Origin: a virus
Reading direction: 5' to 3' (one strand)
Virus record (IMG/VR): IMGVR_UViG_3300044695_001987
Location: 1-20,758 of that record
DNA: 20,758 bases
The notes beneath the pieces were generated by a model. The model had not been told where the DNA came from. It saw only the letters and a list, made by a program, of their open reading frames with translations, and ran no database searches. Position numbers and translations under genes: made by a program. Every line of letters starts with the position of its first letter. Position 1 is the first letter of the stretch. Positions 470 through 13,132 of the stretch are shown piece after piece.

Positions 470-1573
470 TCACAGTTTACTAAGGGCTTTTGACAGCCCG
501 ACGAACGACTGCACCGCTGGCCGGTCGTCTTCGACCGGGGCGAGAGTCGTACCTGACGACTCGGACTTGATCAAGCCTTCGGGCAGTTCGCTAAAGCGCT
601 TTTTGAGCGCCTTCTCGGCCTGCGCCGGAGACATGATCGAAGTCTCGACGACGACAGATTCTTTCAGACCCATTTCCATGAGAACCCTACGGGCCTCTTG
701 TTCATCGGTCCACTTGCGACGCGCTTGCTTTTGCACCAGCTTGTAGCCAGGCACAGCGACATTCTTCTCCAGAAGGCCAAAGGCCAGCGCGCGCAAATCC
801 TTGATCCACTCTTCCAAGAGATCAGCATTCTTCAGATATTGGCCCAGCGTGTCAACATCCAGATTCACAATCTGTTGCTGAAGCGCGCGGTCCACAGCGC
901 CGGTCATCTGCGGGCAGATCGGCTTGGCGGCGCACCAGCGGCAATGATCTCCCTGCGACAACCCGGCGTCGTCTTGCATTGCCGCCTTGACGGCTTGCAC
1001 CAGCTCCAACTCGAACTGCTTGACGCGCTCGACAGTCGTTGTCCAGCGCTTAGTGAAGGGCGGCTGCACAATGACGCATTCAATCTCGGTCACGCCCTCA
1101 AAGGCCCACTTGAGCGATTCAGTCCGCATCGCGGCGGCTGCGTAGAACAGCAACTGCTCATTCTCCTCGGCAGGCACCGGCACGCCAGAGCCGAACTTCC
1201 AATCCAGCACGACAGCCTTATTGCCGATACGACCCACAAGGTCAGTCGAGCCAAACACGCCTGGCAACAGATCGCCAAACCCGACGCGCGTCTCTGTCGC
1301 GTATTCGATATCGCCTAGCTCGTCAAGGGCCGCGAGCGCCGGAGCGATCTTCTCGTCGTAGAGTTCGTTCGTCAGAATTTGATCCTTGTACTTCATACCC
1401 AGCACATCGGCTCGGCTAGAGAGGATCGCATCCATAGCGTTGTGCAGTAGCGTACCTTGGTCGGCGTACTTGCTGCTGGGCTGAGGGGGCATCTTCTGCA
1501 CCAGCTTCACCGAGCCAGGGCAGTTGATGACGCGCTTGGCGGTCGAACCGCCGACGATGTTTGAGTGTTGCAT
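470..1573 (-). CDS. DUF2800 family PD-(D/E)XK nuclease, Cas4/RecB-like
   Basis: This 367-aa protein has the layout of Cas4/RecB-type exonucleases. GTLLH (40-44) supplies the early helix, GSTD with D111 and LDWK with D124/K126 form the PD-(D/E)XK active site, and Q140 starts the QLLFYA helix motif. One cysteine near the N-terminus (C18, in NCPGS) and three later ones (C211, C214, C220; C-x2-C-x5-C) match the four ligands of the Cas4/AddB iron-sulfur cluster. The family is called DUF2800 in phages and is thought to process DNA ends for recombination and replication. The start HSNIVGGSTAKRV fits the family, but no good ribosome site lies before it, so initiation may be weak or leaderless. The neighbour on the same strand (1-460) may be a DNA-binding partner. 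Nuclease identity is likely; the exact substrate is not visible. Confidence 0.88.
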   Translation of the reverse strand: MQHSNIVGGSTAKRVINCPGSVKLVQKMPPQPSSKYADQGTLLHNAMDAILSSRADVLGMKYKDQILTNELYDEKIAPALAALDELGDIEYATETRVGFGDLLPGVFGSTDLVGRIGNKAVVLDWKFGSGVPVPAEENEQLLFYAAAAMRTESLKWAFEGVTEIECVIVQPPFTKRWTTTVERVKQFELELVQAVKAAMQDDAGLSQGDHCRWCAAKPICPQMTGAVDRALQQQIVNLDVDTLGQYLKNADLLEEWIKDLRALAFGLLEKNVAVPGYKLVQKQARRKWTDEQEARRVLMEMGLKESVVVETSIMSPAQAEKALKKRFSELPEGLIKSESSGTTLAPVEDDRPAVQSFVGLSKALSKL

Positions 1574-1600
1574 GGGCTGGATGATACATGAAAAAAAGAC

Positions 1601-1630
1601 TTGTGCAAAAGTTTTTTACTGTGTTACAGT
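1601..1630 (+). promoter_or_regulatory. Candidate sigma70-type early promoter
   Basis: TTGTGC at 1601-1606 and TACAGT at 1625-1630 are separated by 18 bases, a fair match to -35 and -10 boxes. They lie in the only real gap of the early region, between divergent genes starting at 1573 and 1657. An RNA from here would start near 1637 and leave a leader of about 20 nt carrying the GGAG ribosome site at 1646-1649. Minus-strand firing for the DUF2800 gene is less clear: TATCAT (complement of 1581-1586) would leave almost no leader. The assignment rests on consensus matching only. Confidence 0.45.
1618..1630. promoter_or_regulatory. Inverted repeat over the -10 region, possible operator
   Basis: ACTGT-GTT-ACAGT is a perfect 5-bp inverted repeat with a 3-base centre that covers the candidate -10 box. 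Small dimeric repressors use sites of this shape. Its spacing differs from the E. coli LexA box (CTG-N10-CAG). A 5-bp repeat can arise by chance, so position is the main support. Confidence 0.35.
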
Positions 1631-1656
1631 CGAGTCCCAATCAACTGGAGTCCACT

Positions 1657-1836
1657 ATGGGAATCATCTGCGTCCACGCGCTCGGCTACGACAACATCTT
1701 GCTCAGTAAAGATGACCGCGATCTTCAACTGGCCATTCACAGCATGAATGCCACCGTACGCACCACGCTCTCGTCGGCACAAGTACAAACCCTGATTGAC
1801 GCGCTGCAAAAGGTGTTGGATGAAACCGCCGCTTAA
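1657..1836 (+). CDS. Small early protein, first gene of the early operon
   Basis: This codes for 59 aa beginning MGIICVHALGYDNILLSKDD. I chose ATG 1657 because GGAG sits 7 bases upstream. The in-frame ATG at 1588 lies upstream of the candidate promoter and would add a poor Lys/Phe-rich leader. The protein is soluble, with a predicted helical second half (SSAQVQTLIDALQKVLDE) and one Cys. I do not recognise a family. As the first gene behind the early promoter it is in the usual place for host-takeover or anti-defence proteins, but nothing in its sequence proves such a role. The next gene starts 18 nt downstream. Confidence 0.65.
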   Translation: MGIICVHALGYDNILLSKDDRDLQLAIHSMNATVRTTLSSAQVQTLIDALQKVLDETAA

Positions 1837-1843
1837 ACTTTTA

Positions 1844-1865
1844 GAGACACGCAAATGAGTTTTGC
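1844..1865 (+). repeat. Near-direct repeat, upstream copy
   Basis: This 22-base segment spans the ribosome-site region and first codons of the DUF4338 gene. It matches 2425-2446 at 19 of 22 positions. The shared core is GAG-R-CACGCA-R-ATGAGTTT-Y-GC, and all three differences are transitions. The two copies bracket the AT-rich DUF4338 gene. Confidence 0.7.
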
Positions 1866-2439
1866 TTTACGAATTGCCGAATCTGAAGCAGACAAAAAAA
1901 TTGCAGATCAGATTGTGATTCAGCACCACAGCTATGTGGCCAGCGCCAGAACTGTTGGAAGGTGCCTGAAGTACATCATCAATTTTGAAAATCGAGACAT
2001 TGGAACATTTTGGATTGGCAGCGGATTTAAACCAACTCCAAAATCTATCCTGATGCACTTTGGCAAAAGTCAAAAAGAATTTGACGCCATGTTTAACAAT
2101 GTCGCAGACAACAAGCGATTTTGCATGGCCGAGAGAATCCCAAATATTGGATCACGCATTCTCAAACAAGTGCGTCAAAGAGCGAGACAAGATTGGAAAA
2201 ATCGCTATGGCGACGATCTGGTGGCTATCGTCACCACAATTGGCAACGGAAAAACAGGTGCTGTTTATCTTGCAGACAACTGGAAAAAAATTGGAGAGAC
2301 TGCGGGTTTACCTGCCGATCGTAAATCGGTGTCAATGAAATGGGATGATGCAGAAAGCATCAATCAAAAATTTGTAAAACCAACTGGCGAGAACAAAAAA
2401 ATCATTTTGATTACAACGCGATTGGAGGCACGCAGATGA
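1855..2439 (+). CDS. DUF4338 (DruA-like) protein
   Basis: This 194-aa protein follows the DUF4338 pattern, the family that includes DruA of Druantia defence systems and many transposon-linked proteins. Visible blocks are HHSY (24-27) followed by VGRCLKYII, a central NNVADNKRF (81-89), RIPNIGSRIL (94-103), then DWKNRYGDDLVAIV and GAVYLADNWKKIGET (135-149). These align by eye with the family's N-RF, P-NLASR-L, DW-YG and GT-YRAANW-G-T blocks. The family's usual ETFVD segment reads VTTIGNG here. Phage Mu Mom-type DNA modification proteins share a similar ending and are an alternative. The gene is clearly AT-richer than its neighbours (runs of A, AAA and CAA codons) and is bracketed by a near-direct repeat, so it looks acquired. 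It is coupled by ATGA to the next gene. Family assignment is likely; function is unknown. Confidence 0.75.
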   Translation: MSFALRIAESEADKKIADQIVIQHHSYVASARTVGRCLKYIINFENRDIGTFWIGSGFKPTPKSILMHFGKSQKEFDAMFNNVADNKRFCMAERIPNIGSRILKQVRQRARQDWKNRYGDDLVAIVTTIGNGKTGAVYLADNWKKIGETAGLPADRKSVSMKWDDAESINQKFVKPTGENKKIILITTRLEARR

Positions 2440-2446
2440 GTTTCGC
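2425..2446 (+). repeat. Near-direct repeat, downstream copy
   Basis: This partner of 1844-1865 spans the end of the DUF4338 gene, the GGAGG ribosome site and the first codons of the 63-aa membrane protein gene. Both downstream reading frames begin Met-Ser-Phe-Ala as a result. The shorter string GAGGCACG recurs at 5396-5403 before the ATG at 5405, so part of the similarity may reflect a shared initiation signal. Confidence 0.7.
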
Positions 2447-2627
2447 CGTTGGCTTAATTGTTGGCGTTGTCGTTGGCGGTACGATCATGCATTTCGTACA
2501 CGAATACATTGATTCCATGATTGAAGACGACGACGACAGCCGTTGGCTAGGCCGCACCTGCCCGCCGTGCGACGGTCAATGTCAACAGGGCCGGCATTGC
2601 CCGGCAGGAGAGAAAGATGCAACCTGA
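2436..2627 (+). CDS. Small membrane protein with Cys-rich tail
   Basis: This codes for 63 aa. Residues 3-22 (FAVGLIVGVVVGGTIMHFVH) form one hydrophobic helix. An acidic stretch EDDDDS follows, then a tail with the motif C-PP-C-DGQ-C-QQGRH-C-P. Small phage proteins with a C-G-C-QGR-CP motif of this type are widespread and of unknown role. The four cysteines could bind a metal. The topology is probably a single inner-membrane helix with the Cys tail in the cytoplasm, but this is not certain. ATG 2436 overlaps the stop of the DUF4338 gene and follows GGAGG at 2424-2428, so translation is coupled. Confidence 0.75.
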   Translation: MSFAVGLIVGVVVGGTIMHFVHEYIDSMIEDDDDSRWLGRTCPPCDGQCQQGRHCPAGEKDAT

Positions 2628-2790
2628 CTACGCCTACCCCACGATGATGGCTGAGAAAGCCCTCAAAGACCTCCACGAAGCGATGCTGGAGAACCGCTAC
2701 GACGACGCGCTTTTGGCGGGCCTGAACGCCATCGTCGATGTGCGCCTGGCGCTGGTTGCGATCAAAGACGCGAAGGAACGCAAACAATGA
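2617..2790 (+). CDS. Small helical early protein, unknown
   Basis: This codes for 57 aa starting MQPDYAYPTMMAEKAL. The start is set by AGGAG at 2607-2611, just before the ATG. It overlaps the previous gene by 11 nt and the next by four (ATGA). The sequence is rich in Ala, Leu, Lys and Glu and should be mostly helical (KALKDLHEAMLENRYDDALLAGLNAIVDVRLALVAI, given here as a region rather than a motif: residues 14-49). No catalytic motif or membrane segment is seen. Function is unknown. Confidence 0.65.
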   Translation: MQPDYAYPTMMAEKALKDLHEAMLENRYDDALLAGLNAIVDVRLALVAIKDAKERKQ

Positions 2791-3059
2791 CCCGCGACGA
2801 CATCATCCGCATGGCGCGACAAGTCGGGTTTGTTTTGGATGAGGCTGATTTCATCTATCCAAACCCGCGCCGGTCGGGGATTCAATTGGAATTGGAACGC
2901 TTCGCCACCCTTGTCGCCCAGCATGAGCGCGAGGCGTGTGCGAAGTTGTGTGATTCGCTTGAAGAGCAGTGCGAGAAACTTGGCCTGCCTGATGAGAAGT
3001 GGCCTACCCCAGCTGACTGCGCCGCCGTCATCCGCGCAAGGGGGAACGATGCCAACTGA
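2787..3059 (+). CDS. Conserved small phage protein (MTRDDIIRMAR type)
   Basis: This 90-aa protein begins MTRDDIIRMARQVGF and has a central segment ERFATLVAQHEREACAKLC, followed near the C-terminus by AAVIRARG. This three-block pattern is very common among small phage early proteins, usually annotated as hypothetical. It is soluble, helical and acidic to neutral. The three cysteines are not arranged as a zinc site. ATG 2787 overlaps the preceding stop. No function can be given. Confidence 0.8.
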   Translation: MTRDDIIRMARQVGFVLDEADFIYPNPRRSGIQLELERFATLVAQHEREACAKLCDSLEEQCEKLGLPDEKWPTPADCAAVIRARGNDAN

Positions 3060-3279
3060 GAAAGAACTCTTAGCGATCTGCCTGCGGTGGATCGAAGACA
3101 CTCCCGCAGACGCATTCGACCGAGCCATGCTCGTTGACGCGATTAAGGCCAAGCTCCAGCCCGAACTTGAGGTACAGCGCCTGCGCTCGTTCCTGACGCG
3201 CCTGATCGACCCGGAAGACTTGGGTCACGCCGTGACGGCTGAAGTCCGGCAAAAAGTGAGCGCGTTGTTACGTGCGTGA
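3049..3279 (+). CDS. Small helical early protein, unknown
   Basis: This codes for 76 aa starting MPTEKELLAICLRWIEDTP. ATG 3049 follows GGGG at 3041-3044 and overlaps the previous gene by 11 nt. A longer in-frame opening begins at 2830, but that part is only the shadow of the preceding gene. The protein looks helical and amphipathic (LVDAIKAKLQPELEVQRL), with no known motif. It overlaps the nuclease gene after it by 8 nt. Function is unknown. Confidence 0.7.
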   Translation: MPTEKELLAICLRWIEDTPADAFDRAMLVDAIKAKLQPELEVQRLRSFLTRLIDPEDLGHAVTAEVRQKVSALLRA

Positions 3280-3559
3280 GTCAACTATCGAGAAGCACTT
3301 TGTCGCTCAGGTCAAGAAGCTGGGCGGCATGGCCTACAAGTTCACCAGCCCCGCGCATCGCGGCGTGGCCGACCGCGTGGTATGCCTGCCAGACGGTACT
3401 ACTTGGTTTGTTGAACTCAAAGCGCCAGGCGGTCGGCTATCCGAGCTACAGAAGGTCTTTCAATCCGACATGGCCCGGATGCGCCAGAACTACGCCTGCT
3501 TATGGAGCAAGGACCACGTCGATGCTTTTATTGCGTCCGTATCAAAACCAGGCGGCTGA
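3272..3559 (+). CDS. VRR-NUC domain nuclease
   Basis: This 95-aa protein is a minimal VRR-NUC, a PD-(D/E)XK fold nuclease typical of phage and repair systems. The active-site blocks are E3/E7 in the first helix, GVADR (31-35, D34), VELK (47-50, E48 and K50) and S57-x2-Q60. The length is normal for stand-alone phage members. Start is GTG 3272, overlapping the previous gene by 8 nt; MRESTIEKHF fits the family N-terminus. Related enzymes cut branched DNA such as Holliday junctions. The helicase gene starts within its last 38 nt, so the pair is probably co-translated and may act together on replication or recombination intermediates. Confidence 0.9.
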   Translation: MRESTIEKHFVAQVKKLGGMAYKFTSPAHRGVADRVVCLPDGTTWFVELKAPGGRLSELQKVFQSDMARMRQNYACLWSKDHVDAFIASVSKPGG

Positions 3560-4802
3560 CTTCCTGTACGAACACGACCGGGCGATGATCCTCGCGCCGG
3601 TCGGTGCAGGCAAGACCGCCATCACGCTGACGGCTATGCAAGATATGCTGTGCGACGGCCATGTCAAGCGCTTCCTAGTGCTGGCACCGCTGCGCGTCGC
3701 CACCAGCGTCTGGCCGGTCGAGCAACCCAAGTGGGCACCCGGCATCACGATGGCCGTGGCGGTTGGCACGCCAGCGCAGCGCCTAGCCGCGCTCAACAGC
3801 GCAGCCCAAGTCGTCGTGACCAACTACGACAACCTGCAATGGCTCGCCGCGCAGAAGCTCAACTTCGACGGCGTGGTGTTCGACGAACTGACGCGCCTGA
3901 AGAACCCCTCTGGCGCGCGCTTCAAAGCGCTCGCCAAGGTGCTGGACTGCAAGGTGCGTTGGGGGCTGACCGGCTCGTTCACCAGCAACGGATTGGAGGA
4001 TGTCTTCGGCCAATGCAAGATCATCGACCAGCAGTTGCTGGGCCGGTCCAAGGGCGCGTTTCAGCAGCAGTACTTCTACCTCGTCAACCGCGAGTACGGC
4101 GATTGGCAACCGCGCCCTGGCTCGCTGGAGTTGGTCATGCGCCGCATCAAGCCAGCGACCTTCGTGCTGGAGCCTGGCGAGTACAAGGACAAGCTGCCGC
4201 CCATGCACACGGTCGAGGTGCGGATGGACTTGCCTGACCGCGCGCCCTACGAAGCAATGAAGAAAGACTTTGTGACGCGCTTCCCGGACGCAACCGCCGT
4301 GGCTGTCAACGCGGCTGTGGTGACGCAAAAACTACAGCAGATGGCTGCGGGATTCGTTTACACTCCCGAGCCGGTTTGGTTCAGTACGCACAAGTTTGAC
4401 CGGCTCGAAGAACTGCTGGCCGAGAACCAGCAGGCCAACACCATCGTTTTCTACAACTACGTAGAGGAGCTAAGTGAACTCAAGCGACGTTTTCCACACG
4501 CCCGAACAGTTGACAGCATTGATGATTGGAACGCCGGACGAGTACGTTTGCTATGTCTACACCCCAAGTCCGCTGGACACGGACTCAACCTCCAGCACGG
4601 CGGGCACCACATCGTCTGGCTCAGTCTGCCATGGTCCCTCGAACTCTTCGAGCAAGCCAACGGACGCCTGCACCGCAGCGGCCAGCAGCGAGAAGTCTGG
4701 TGCTATGTGATGCTGGCTAACAAGACGGTGGACGAGAAAATCTGGGCGGCGCTGCACGACAAGCGCAGCGTCAGCGACATTGCAATGGAGAGTCTTAAAT
4801 GA
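3522..4802 (+). CDS. SNF2-type (superfamily 2) DNA helicase/translocase
   Basis: This 426-aa protein has the SF2/SNF2 motifs in order: RPYQ (5-8), Walker A APVGAGKT (25-32), LAPLRV (54-59), motif II DELT (121-124, a DEAH variant), GLTGSF (148-153), SAGHGLNL (350-357) and QANGRLHRSGQ (378-388). It uses ATP to move along or remodel DNA. I chose ATG 3522: AAGGA lies about 9 nt upstream, and the protein then begins MLLLRPYQNQAADFLYE, as in related phage helicases. The frame is open further left, but only as the shadow of the VRR-NUC gene. It is short for SNF2 proteins, as usual in phages. It ends in an ATGA overlap with the next gene. Confidence 0.93.
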   Translation: MLLLRPYQNQAADFLYEHDRAMILAPVGAGKTAITLTAMQDMLCDGHVKRFLVLAPLRVATSVWPVEQPKWAPGITMAVAVGTPAQRLAALNSAAQVVVTNYDNLQWLAAQKLNFDGVVFDELTRLKNPSGARFKALAKVLDCKVRWGLTGSFTSNGLEDVFGQCKIIDQQLLGRSKGAFQQQYFYLVNREYGDWQPRPGSLELVMRRIKPATFVLEPGEYKDKLPPMHTVEVRMDLPDRAPYEAMKKDFVTRFPDATAVAVNAAVVTQKLQQMAAGFVYTPEPVWFSTHKFDRLEELLAENQQANTIVFYNYVEELSELKRRFPHARTVDSIDDWNAGRVRLLCLHPKSAGHGLNLQHGGHHIVWLSLPWSLELFEQANGRLHRSGQQREVWCYVMLANKTVDEKIWAALHDKRSVSDIAMESLK

Positions 4803-12251: not shown

Positions 12252-12455
12252 TCAACTCTCCTGTAACGTGACGCAGACTTGACGATTCATCTGCTCAAAC
12301 TTTTCTTTCGACATGACGCGAGCGAAATACACCTGATAGGTCTTCTCGACATTGCACACCACGGGTCGCTGCTCGTAGATGGCGCAAAGGTTGTCGGGCG
12401 TGAGGTGCATACAGTTGATCTTTTTACAGCACATCCCGCACTTTTCGCATTTCAC
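12252..12455 (-). CDS. YkgJ-like Cys-cluster protein
   Basis: This 67-aa protein starts MKCEKCGMCCKKINCMHLT and contains C24AIYEQRPVVC34. Cysteines C3, C6, C9, C10, C15, C24 and C34, with the RP-x2-C segment, fit the YkgJ family of putative zinc or iron-binding proteins (C-x2-C-x2-CC core). The start is GTG 12455, overlapping the stop of the tail-fibre gene (GTGA); the frame is open further upstream only across that gene. A metal-binding Cys protein inside the tail module is unusual, although the same small gene occurs in other phages. It may bind a metal for virion assembly or modify a protein; the role is unknown. Confidence 0.8.
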   Translation of the reverse strand: MKCEKCGMCCKKINCMHLTPDNLCAIYEQRPVVCNVEKTYQVYFARVMSKEKFEQMNRQVCVTLQES

Positions 12456-13132
12456 GCTGTGCGCTTCCACATATACACGGTGATGTAGGGCTGATAGTTG
12501 GCATTGGTGCCAGACGAGCCGGTCGTACTGTTGGTGACGGAAATGCCGGTGGTAGCCGTACTGGTGTTTTGCGTTGAGTTTGTTGTTAAACACGAAGTAT
12601 TGGAACCGGATTGAACCTGCGGACTTCCTGCTTGCTGAAAAGTATGATTGTGTCCGGGATCGGTAACCGTTGCCGTGTGGGTGTGCGACACAACAATCGC
12701 GTCAGCGCTACCACCAGTCTCTTCAGCCGTGTCAAACAGTGCATTACCGGCATCAAAACCCACCGGCACTCGGCCCGCACCAAACGCTGCCCAAGTGCCA
12801 AAACCCAGAAGCGTTCCAGGGTTGGTGCTGCTGGTAGCGTTCATGTAGATCGAACCGACCGGGTGCAGCACTTGCAAAGCAGCCTGCACAAAAGCCGTCG
12901 TTGCCAGAGCAGTCGTGTTGTTACCAGAACTCTGCGTGACGCCCGTCGTGCCTGTTGGCAACGAGGGCGTGCCCGTGAACGTAGGCGACGCCGTATCAGC
13001 CTTTGTCGCTACCGCAATAGCGATGTTGACAAACTCGGTGTTGATTTCCGTGCCCTTGACGATCTTGAGAGGATCGCCAGGCGACAGAGAATCCTTCGTA
13101 GCGAAGTTGGTGCTTTGAACGTAGTTACTCAT
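12452..13132 (-). CDS. Tail fibre / receptor-binding protein with HxH motifs
   Basis: This 226-aa protein has a fibre-like N-terminal half with the segment ASPTFTGTPSLPTGTT (near 48-63), seen in trimeric tail fibres. Then comes HPVGSIYMNAT (90-100) and GTLLGFGTWAAFGAGRVPVG, the collar/Gp10-type C-terminal domain. Two HxH motifs, H150-T-H152 and H161-N-H163, are the usual metal-binding sites of such fibre tips. The ending YQPYITVYMWKRTA is typical of the family. It should bind the host surface. The length is short for a fibre, so a separate longer adhesin outside the window is possible. ATGA coupling links it to the tail gene before it. Confidence 0.85.
   Translation of the reverse strand: MSNYVQSTNFATKDSLSPGDPLKIVKGTEINTEFVNIAIAVATKADTASPTFTGTPSLPTGTTGVTQSSGNNTTALATTAFVQAALQVLHPVGSIYMNATSSTNPGTLLGFGTWAAFGAGRVPVGFDAGNALFDTAEETGGSADAIVVSHTHTATVTDPGHNHTFQQAGSPQVQSGSNTSCLTTNSTQNTSTATTGISVTNSTTGSSGTNANYQPYITVYMWKRTA

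Follow-up and report, generated by a model that had tools for sequence, protein, structure and literature searches.

The gene of interest (P0001) lies at positions 1855 to 2439 on the plus strand of the window, a 20.8-kb fragment from an uncultivated virus. A first-pass annotation had placed an open reading frame (ORF) at exactly these coordinates, and it is present there, with an ATG start and 194 codons for amino acids. We predict that its product is an acyltransferase of the GNAT superfamily related to Mom and DruA. The first ORF of the operon (1588 to 1836, plus strand) encodes 82 aa as called, or 59 aa if read from an ATG at 1657 that has GGAG upstream. A small ORF on the other side (2436 to 2627, plus strand) shares 4 bases (ATGA) with the 3' end of the GNAT gene. 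Farther along are genes for a VRR-NUC-like endonuclease/resolvase (3272 to 3559, plus strand) and an SNF2-type DNA helicase (3522 to 4802, plus strand), which shares 33% identity with its counterpart in Salmonella phage VSiA. A divergent gene encodes a DUF2800 PD-(D/E)XK exonuclease (470 to 1573, minus strand). The DUF2800 and SNF2 genes are the left and right borders of a variable slot. Gene order fits reasonably with the earlier view that the GNAT gene is the second one of an early operon, but a promoter scan gave a number of sites no higher than chance. The impression that the gene is AT rich was correct. It is the most AT rich among the 22 window genes measured, with a GC content of 0.421 (42%) and a GC3 of 0.400, compared with a GC content of 0.468 to 0.630 for the other measured genes and about 57% for the window overall.

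Two further observations concern the window itself. The DUF2800 exonuclease (470 to 1573, minus strand) matches the PADLOC DruK nuclease models (E 2.5e-9), which is likely to mislead automated annotation of Druantia in phages. Between genes of the tail region, a 113-aa ORF (12252 to 12593, minus strand) has a cysteine cluster, CEKCGMCC...C...C, and looks by eye like a YkgJ-like metal-cluster protein.

All the motif blocks named in the first-pass annotation were found in the protein: HHSY (aa 24 to 27), NKRF (aa 86 to 89), RIPNIGSRIL (aa 94 to 103), DWKNRYG (aa 113 to 119), and GAVYLADNWKKIGET (aa 135 to 149). They are conserved across 57 diverse relatives and are not due to chance. The window protein on its own gave a match to the Pfam DruA family PF14236 with an E value of 0.0092 and 15.6 bits (cut-off, 27 bits), and a match in PHROGs to "Mom-like DNA modification protein" with an E value of 0.0094. 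As sequence evidence, either match alone would not stand. We found no match to the Pfam Mom family PF25680 at E ≤ 1 or to the PADLOC and NCBIfam models, only chance matches in a PDB sequence search, and no homologue by tblastn in 50,697 phage records.

The family emerged from IMG/VR, where a first scan found 50 loci and a scan around a distant member found 82. It has at least 267 loci there (267 stretches were confirmed by a profile scan, and 80 of these were retained). The fetched members fell into 57 clusters at 85% identity, which formed the basis of a 57-sequence alignment. In a set of genomes from 84,980 species there was a single family locus (L052), on a contig of a Bacilli metagenome-assembled genome (MAG), and a search for DruA in 295 genomes from the phylum of that MAG found nothing, an outcome that says little. 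The family is so far known almost only from uncultivated viruses, and apparently it has not been described before. Apparent double matches on one contig proved to be one gene detected twice. At L078 (4001 to 4609) and L080, the family member is divided into two ORFs and so is a broken or frameshifted copy.

Residues Y27, R36, N86, N97, G99, R107, Y118, T127, G135, Y138, D141, N142, W143, and G147 are invariant across the 57 members, and position 100 is Ser or Thr in all 57. When 20 members were tested, 16 matched DruA (best E value, 8.5e-11) and all 20 matched phrog_1384, "Mom-like DNA modification" (best E value, 6.3e-6). The relatives L012, L013, and L038 scored 36.3, 37.7, and 41.1 bits against PF14236, above the 27-bit cut-off. 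The first-pass assignment to DUF4338 (DruA) was right for the family, but the window protein alone falls below the threshold. One relative, L058, scored 18 bits against PF25680, for which the cut-off is 27.1 bits.

An AlphaFold model built from 20 sequences was poor in its C-terminal third (pLDDT of 68), and we used a model built from the 57 sequences instead. One of the top viral predicted-structure matches of the poorer model was the Mom protein of Salmonella phage FSL SP-031. The 57-sequence model is confident (pLDDT of 92.0, pTM of 0.86), and the model together with Foldseek revealed the GNAT fold, β1-α1-β2-β3-β4-α3-β5-α4-β6. Foldseek against the PDB returned GNATs throughout, and the S124A mutant of Mu Mom (8bv8_B) was third (E 3.3e-5, probability 1.00, 16% identity). 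GNATs that act on proteins and on small molecules were placed beside Mom. From this model, the window protein is confidently predicted to belong to the GNAT superfamily, and DUF4338 has already been called a GNAT domain (PMC10853773). By profile comparison, the family also matched both DUF4338 (DruA) and Mom.

The profile matches came from hhalign, whose values here are pairwise and carry no database background. The family aligned with DruA over residues 20 to 191 (97.5%, E 6e-12) and with Mom over residues 12 to 153 (95.6%, E 1.1e-8). Mom and DruA compared directly gave no significant match (0.7%, E 0.08). The generic GNAT control, E. coli RimI, gave E values of 0.71 against the family and 0.96 against Mom, although a single sequence is a weak control. 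In single-sequence comparisons with the family, Mu Mom gave an E value of 0.0047 and DruA gave 1e-4. Because the family matches both Mom and DruA and these two do not match each other, it links two groups that are mutually unrecognized with the alignments used. Judged by these profiles, the family occupies an intermediate position, with phage Mom on one side and DruA (DUF4338) on the other. The first-pass annotation overlooked the shared GNAT membership of Mom and DruA and their connection through this family. We found no stated link between Mom and DruA, and no description of DruA biochemistry, in searches of the open-access literature.

We then aligned the family with 14 Mom proteins; because this alignment is a joint one, it somewhat favors agreement between residues. 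Mom residues H48, Y49, G71, G76, R101, N111, G146, Y149, A151, N153, and G158 fall on conserved family columns, and H48, Y49, G71, R101, N111, G146, Y149, A151, N153, and G158 are kept in nearly all of the 57 members. Mom S136 falls on an invariant Thr of the family. The invariant E98, D139, H173, and Y207 of Mom are not conserved in the family. In the window protein, the HHSYV motif (aa 24 to 28; 1924 to 1938, plus strand) contains H25, which aligns with H48 of Mu Mom. Residues 85 to 103, DNKRFCMAERIPNIGSRIL (2107 to 2163, plus strand), include R88 and N97, which align with Mom R101 and N111, and S100, which in the profile alignment meets the Ser replaced in the inactive S124A mutant of Mom (8bv8). 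Residues 135 to 147, GAVYLADNWKKIG (2257 to 2295, plus strand), align with GVVYQASNFDFIG of Mu Mom and hold the Tyr and Asn counterparts of Mom Y149 and N153. The roles given to Mom residues here derive from conservation and from the S124A label that 8bv8 carries. The strand-5 block of the family, YGDDLVAIVTT, resembles that of DruA (YGDTLVGVTTT in L054) rather than that of Mom.

The genes around the relatives include others for DNA modification. In 11 of the 57 clusters, a true Mom gene (PF25680) is found no more than 3 kb away; it is immediately adjacent in 7 and overlaps in several, and one of these neighbors that was tested matched PF25680 with an E value of 1e-51. An MT-A70 adenine methyltransferase gene is nearby in 4 clusters, and a gene for a DruA-like protein of 370 to 405 aa lies within 3 kb in 2. 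The clusters are not independent events, and therefore these counts are indicative. Many relatives sit in T4-type replication modules with genes for DNA polymerase B, gp59, and RegA-like proteins. At L147 (3319 to 6559), five GNAT genes form an array, with two family members first and then three true Mom genes.

DruA-like proteins of 370 to 420 aa are also encoded by phages at L054 (1162 to 2427), L055 (1252 to 2373), L016 (4674 to 5933), and L117 (3985 to 5202). The L055 protein belongs to phrog_19197, a PHROG labeled as having no known function that could take the name DruA-like. On a plasmid of Candidatus Thiodictyon syntrophicum (L381, 2405 to 3739), an "ISAs1 family transposase" matches residues 18 to 192 of the window protein (24% identity, E 6e-6); in that record a DruA-like domain is either joined to a transposase or mistaken for one.

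The DUF2800 and SNF2 helicase genes bound a variable slot in related phages as well, and they are divergent in all 100 loci listed. Our survey covered 126 loci with 78 distinct slot contents, from two scans that partly overlap in contigs. Among the 126 loci, only the window has the GNAT gene in this slot. One locus (L373) instead holds a Mom gene at 30.5 bits, above the cut-off, and two (L345 and L371) hold a gene related to phage DNA methylases. Six slots hold a queuine-transferase relative and a Vut/YhhQ-type transporter, which we take to be the type of pair used for deazaguanine modification. Most other slots have only small ORFs of unknown function. Judged by the window (1574 to 3522) and by L373, L345, L371, L365, L367, L369, L375, L376, and L250, the slot seems to be an exchange site for differing DNA-modification genes, such that sister phages carry chemically different modification genes at one position.

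The nearest sister, L298, has a helicase 98% identical to that of the window, and the GNAT gene is absent from its 44.9-kb record. Between its VRR-NUC and helicase genes is a Mom-like ORF that scores 24.8 bits, below the cut-off; phage ZF40 has a relative of this ORF that carries the annotation "Mom-like DNA modification protein." In L001 and L002, conversely, the GNAT gene is present at 99% identity, but the helicase of its module is a different one. Therefore, the gene has moved horizontally among phages, in keeping with its AT richness. Salmonella phage VSiA, whose DUF2800, helicase, and HNH proteins have homologues in the window, carries a Mom-like gene in a comparable DUF2800-helicase module, between DUF2815 and DNA polymerase.

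Among the three uses that the first-pass annotation had proposed, modification of DNA in the manner of Mu Mom is the best supported, by the Mom profile match (E 1.1e-8), the shared residues, and the company of Mom genes. We infer that the protein is probably, by a modest balance of the evidence, a Mom-like GNAT that protects the phage's own DNA from restriction by acylating one of its bases. The fold is supported by the model, and the DNA substrate is suggested by relatedness and gene company. In this scenario, an accessory gene would have been acquired into the variable slot of the phage replication module. The enzyme would bind an acyl- or acetyl-CoA-type donor and use a putative His/Ser-or-Thr/Tyr/Asn set in common with Mom. 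It would transfer a small group to a base of freshly replicated phage DNA, perhaps to adenine at its amino group, and the modified DNA would then escape cutting by host restriction enzymes. Several points argue against this reading. GNATs of the superfamily use many substrates, and genomic company is no proof of a substrate. By profile comparison, the family is slightly more similar to DruA than to Mom. Mom D139, E98, H173, and Y207 have no conserved counterparts in the alignment, and the window protein has no Pfam Mom match at E ≤ 1 and scores below the Pfam threshold for DruA.

In a second reading, the enzyme would serve host takeover by acylating a small molecule or a host protein (RNA polymerase, for example, or a protein of the ribosome). 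This mode of action is known for phage GNATs such as phiKMV Rac (PMC7824862), and RimI, SpeG, and similar enzymes share the fold and score as high as Mom in Foldseek. However, the family resembles Mom and DruA in profile and not the generic GNAT tested, and its relatives adjoin genes for Mom, adenine methyltransferase, and the replisome. We therefore consider this reading rather unlikely. A further proposal is that the gene is a phage-borne, DruA-like defense module against competing phages. Relatives do exceed the Pfam DruA cut-off, the DruA profile match has an E value of 6e-12, 2 clusters have a 370- to 405-aa DruA-like gene at most 3 kb away, and structure-based recognition of DruA-like proteins in phages has been reported (PMC12774648). 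The protein has the core domain only, though, and it sits in a replication module with partners for modification rather than restriction. As the first-pass annotation had noted, it has no other Druantia gene beside it: no match to DruB to DruE was found among the window proteins tested, and partner genes may be missing because the window is a 20.8-kb fragment. Nothing here points to use against competing phages, and we judge such a role improbable.

A base-modifying GNAT with an RNA or tRNA substrate is slightly less plausible still. GNATs act on varied amines, and the slot neighbors in related phages include a relative of the queuine transferases, which were first known from tRNA. DNA is the substrate of Mom, the closest relative whose function is known, and the family clusters with genes for DNA polymerase, helicase, and DNA methylase, which argues for DNA. 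The last proposal, an inactive decoy or inhibitor that mimics DruA to block host Druantia, has the shared DruA core domain in its favor, but we consider it very improbable because the putative active site is invariant in 57 diverse members; moreover, the rest of the approximately 400-aa DruA is absent, the similarity to Mom is significant too, the gene company is one of DNA modification and replication, and no enrichment with anti-defense genes was seen. Nothing in the analysis favors a decoy or a Druantia role.

If the Mom-like reading is true, the family adds a branch to the phage DNA-modification repertoire. A broader proposal is possible but doubtful: the family would be an evolutionary link between Mom and DruA, DruA of type I Druantia would be a nucleic-acid base acyltransferase, Druantia would mark DNA chemically, and phages would possess another, hitherto undescribed branch of enzymes that acylate bases, with an active site unlike that of Mom. 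The main interest lies in the suggestion that DruA of Druantia may be a base acyltransferase. Mom is a rare GNAT that acts on DNA, and a family matching both makes the function of DruA testable as an acylated base.

Compared with Mom of phage Mu and its relatives (PF25680, phrog_1384; PDB 8bv8), the family has the same GNAT fold and equivalents of H48/Y49, R101, N111, S124 (Ser/Thr), Y149, N153, and G158. Mom-like genes are likewise found in phage replication modules and are neighbors of the family in many phages. Unlike Mom, the family does not conserve D139, E98, H173, and Y207; PF25680 is unmatched by the window protein and matched below the cut-off by one relative; and Mu Mom is made late, whereas the window gene is in an operon of replication genes. 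With DruA (DUF4338, PF14236) of type I Druantia, the family shares a homologous core domain, including the YGD-L--TT block and a G-x start of the next helix. However, the window protein has 194 aa compared with 370 to 430 for DruA and no Druantia partner genes, and the family keeps a Mom-like Y-x-A-D-N-W motif that is absent from the DruA set. Proteins of Synechococcus phages recognized as DruA-like by structure in the Phold paper (PMC12774648) are also phage borne; the passages describing them mention neither Mom nor a DNA-modification setting. DUF4338 GNAT domains fused to DndF (PMC10853773) and the ISAs1 transposase record of Thiodictyon belong to the same domain class. Unlike that fusion to a defense ATPase and that "transposase," the window protein is a free-standing GNAT domain.
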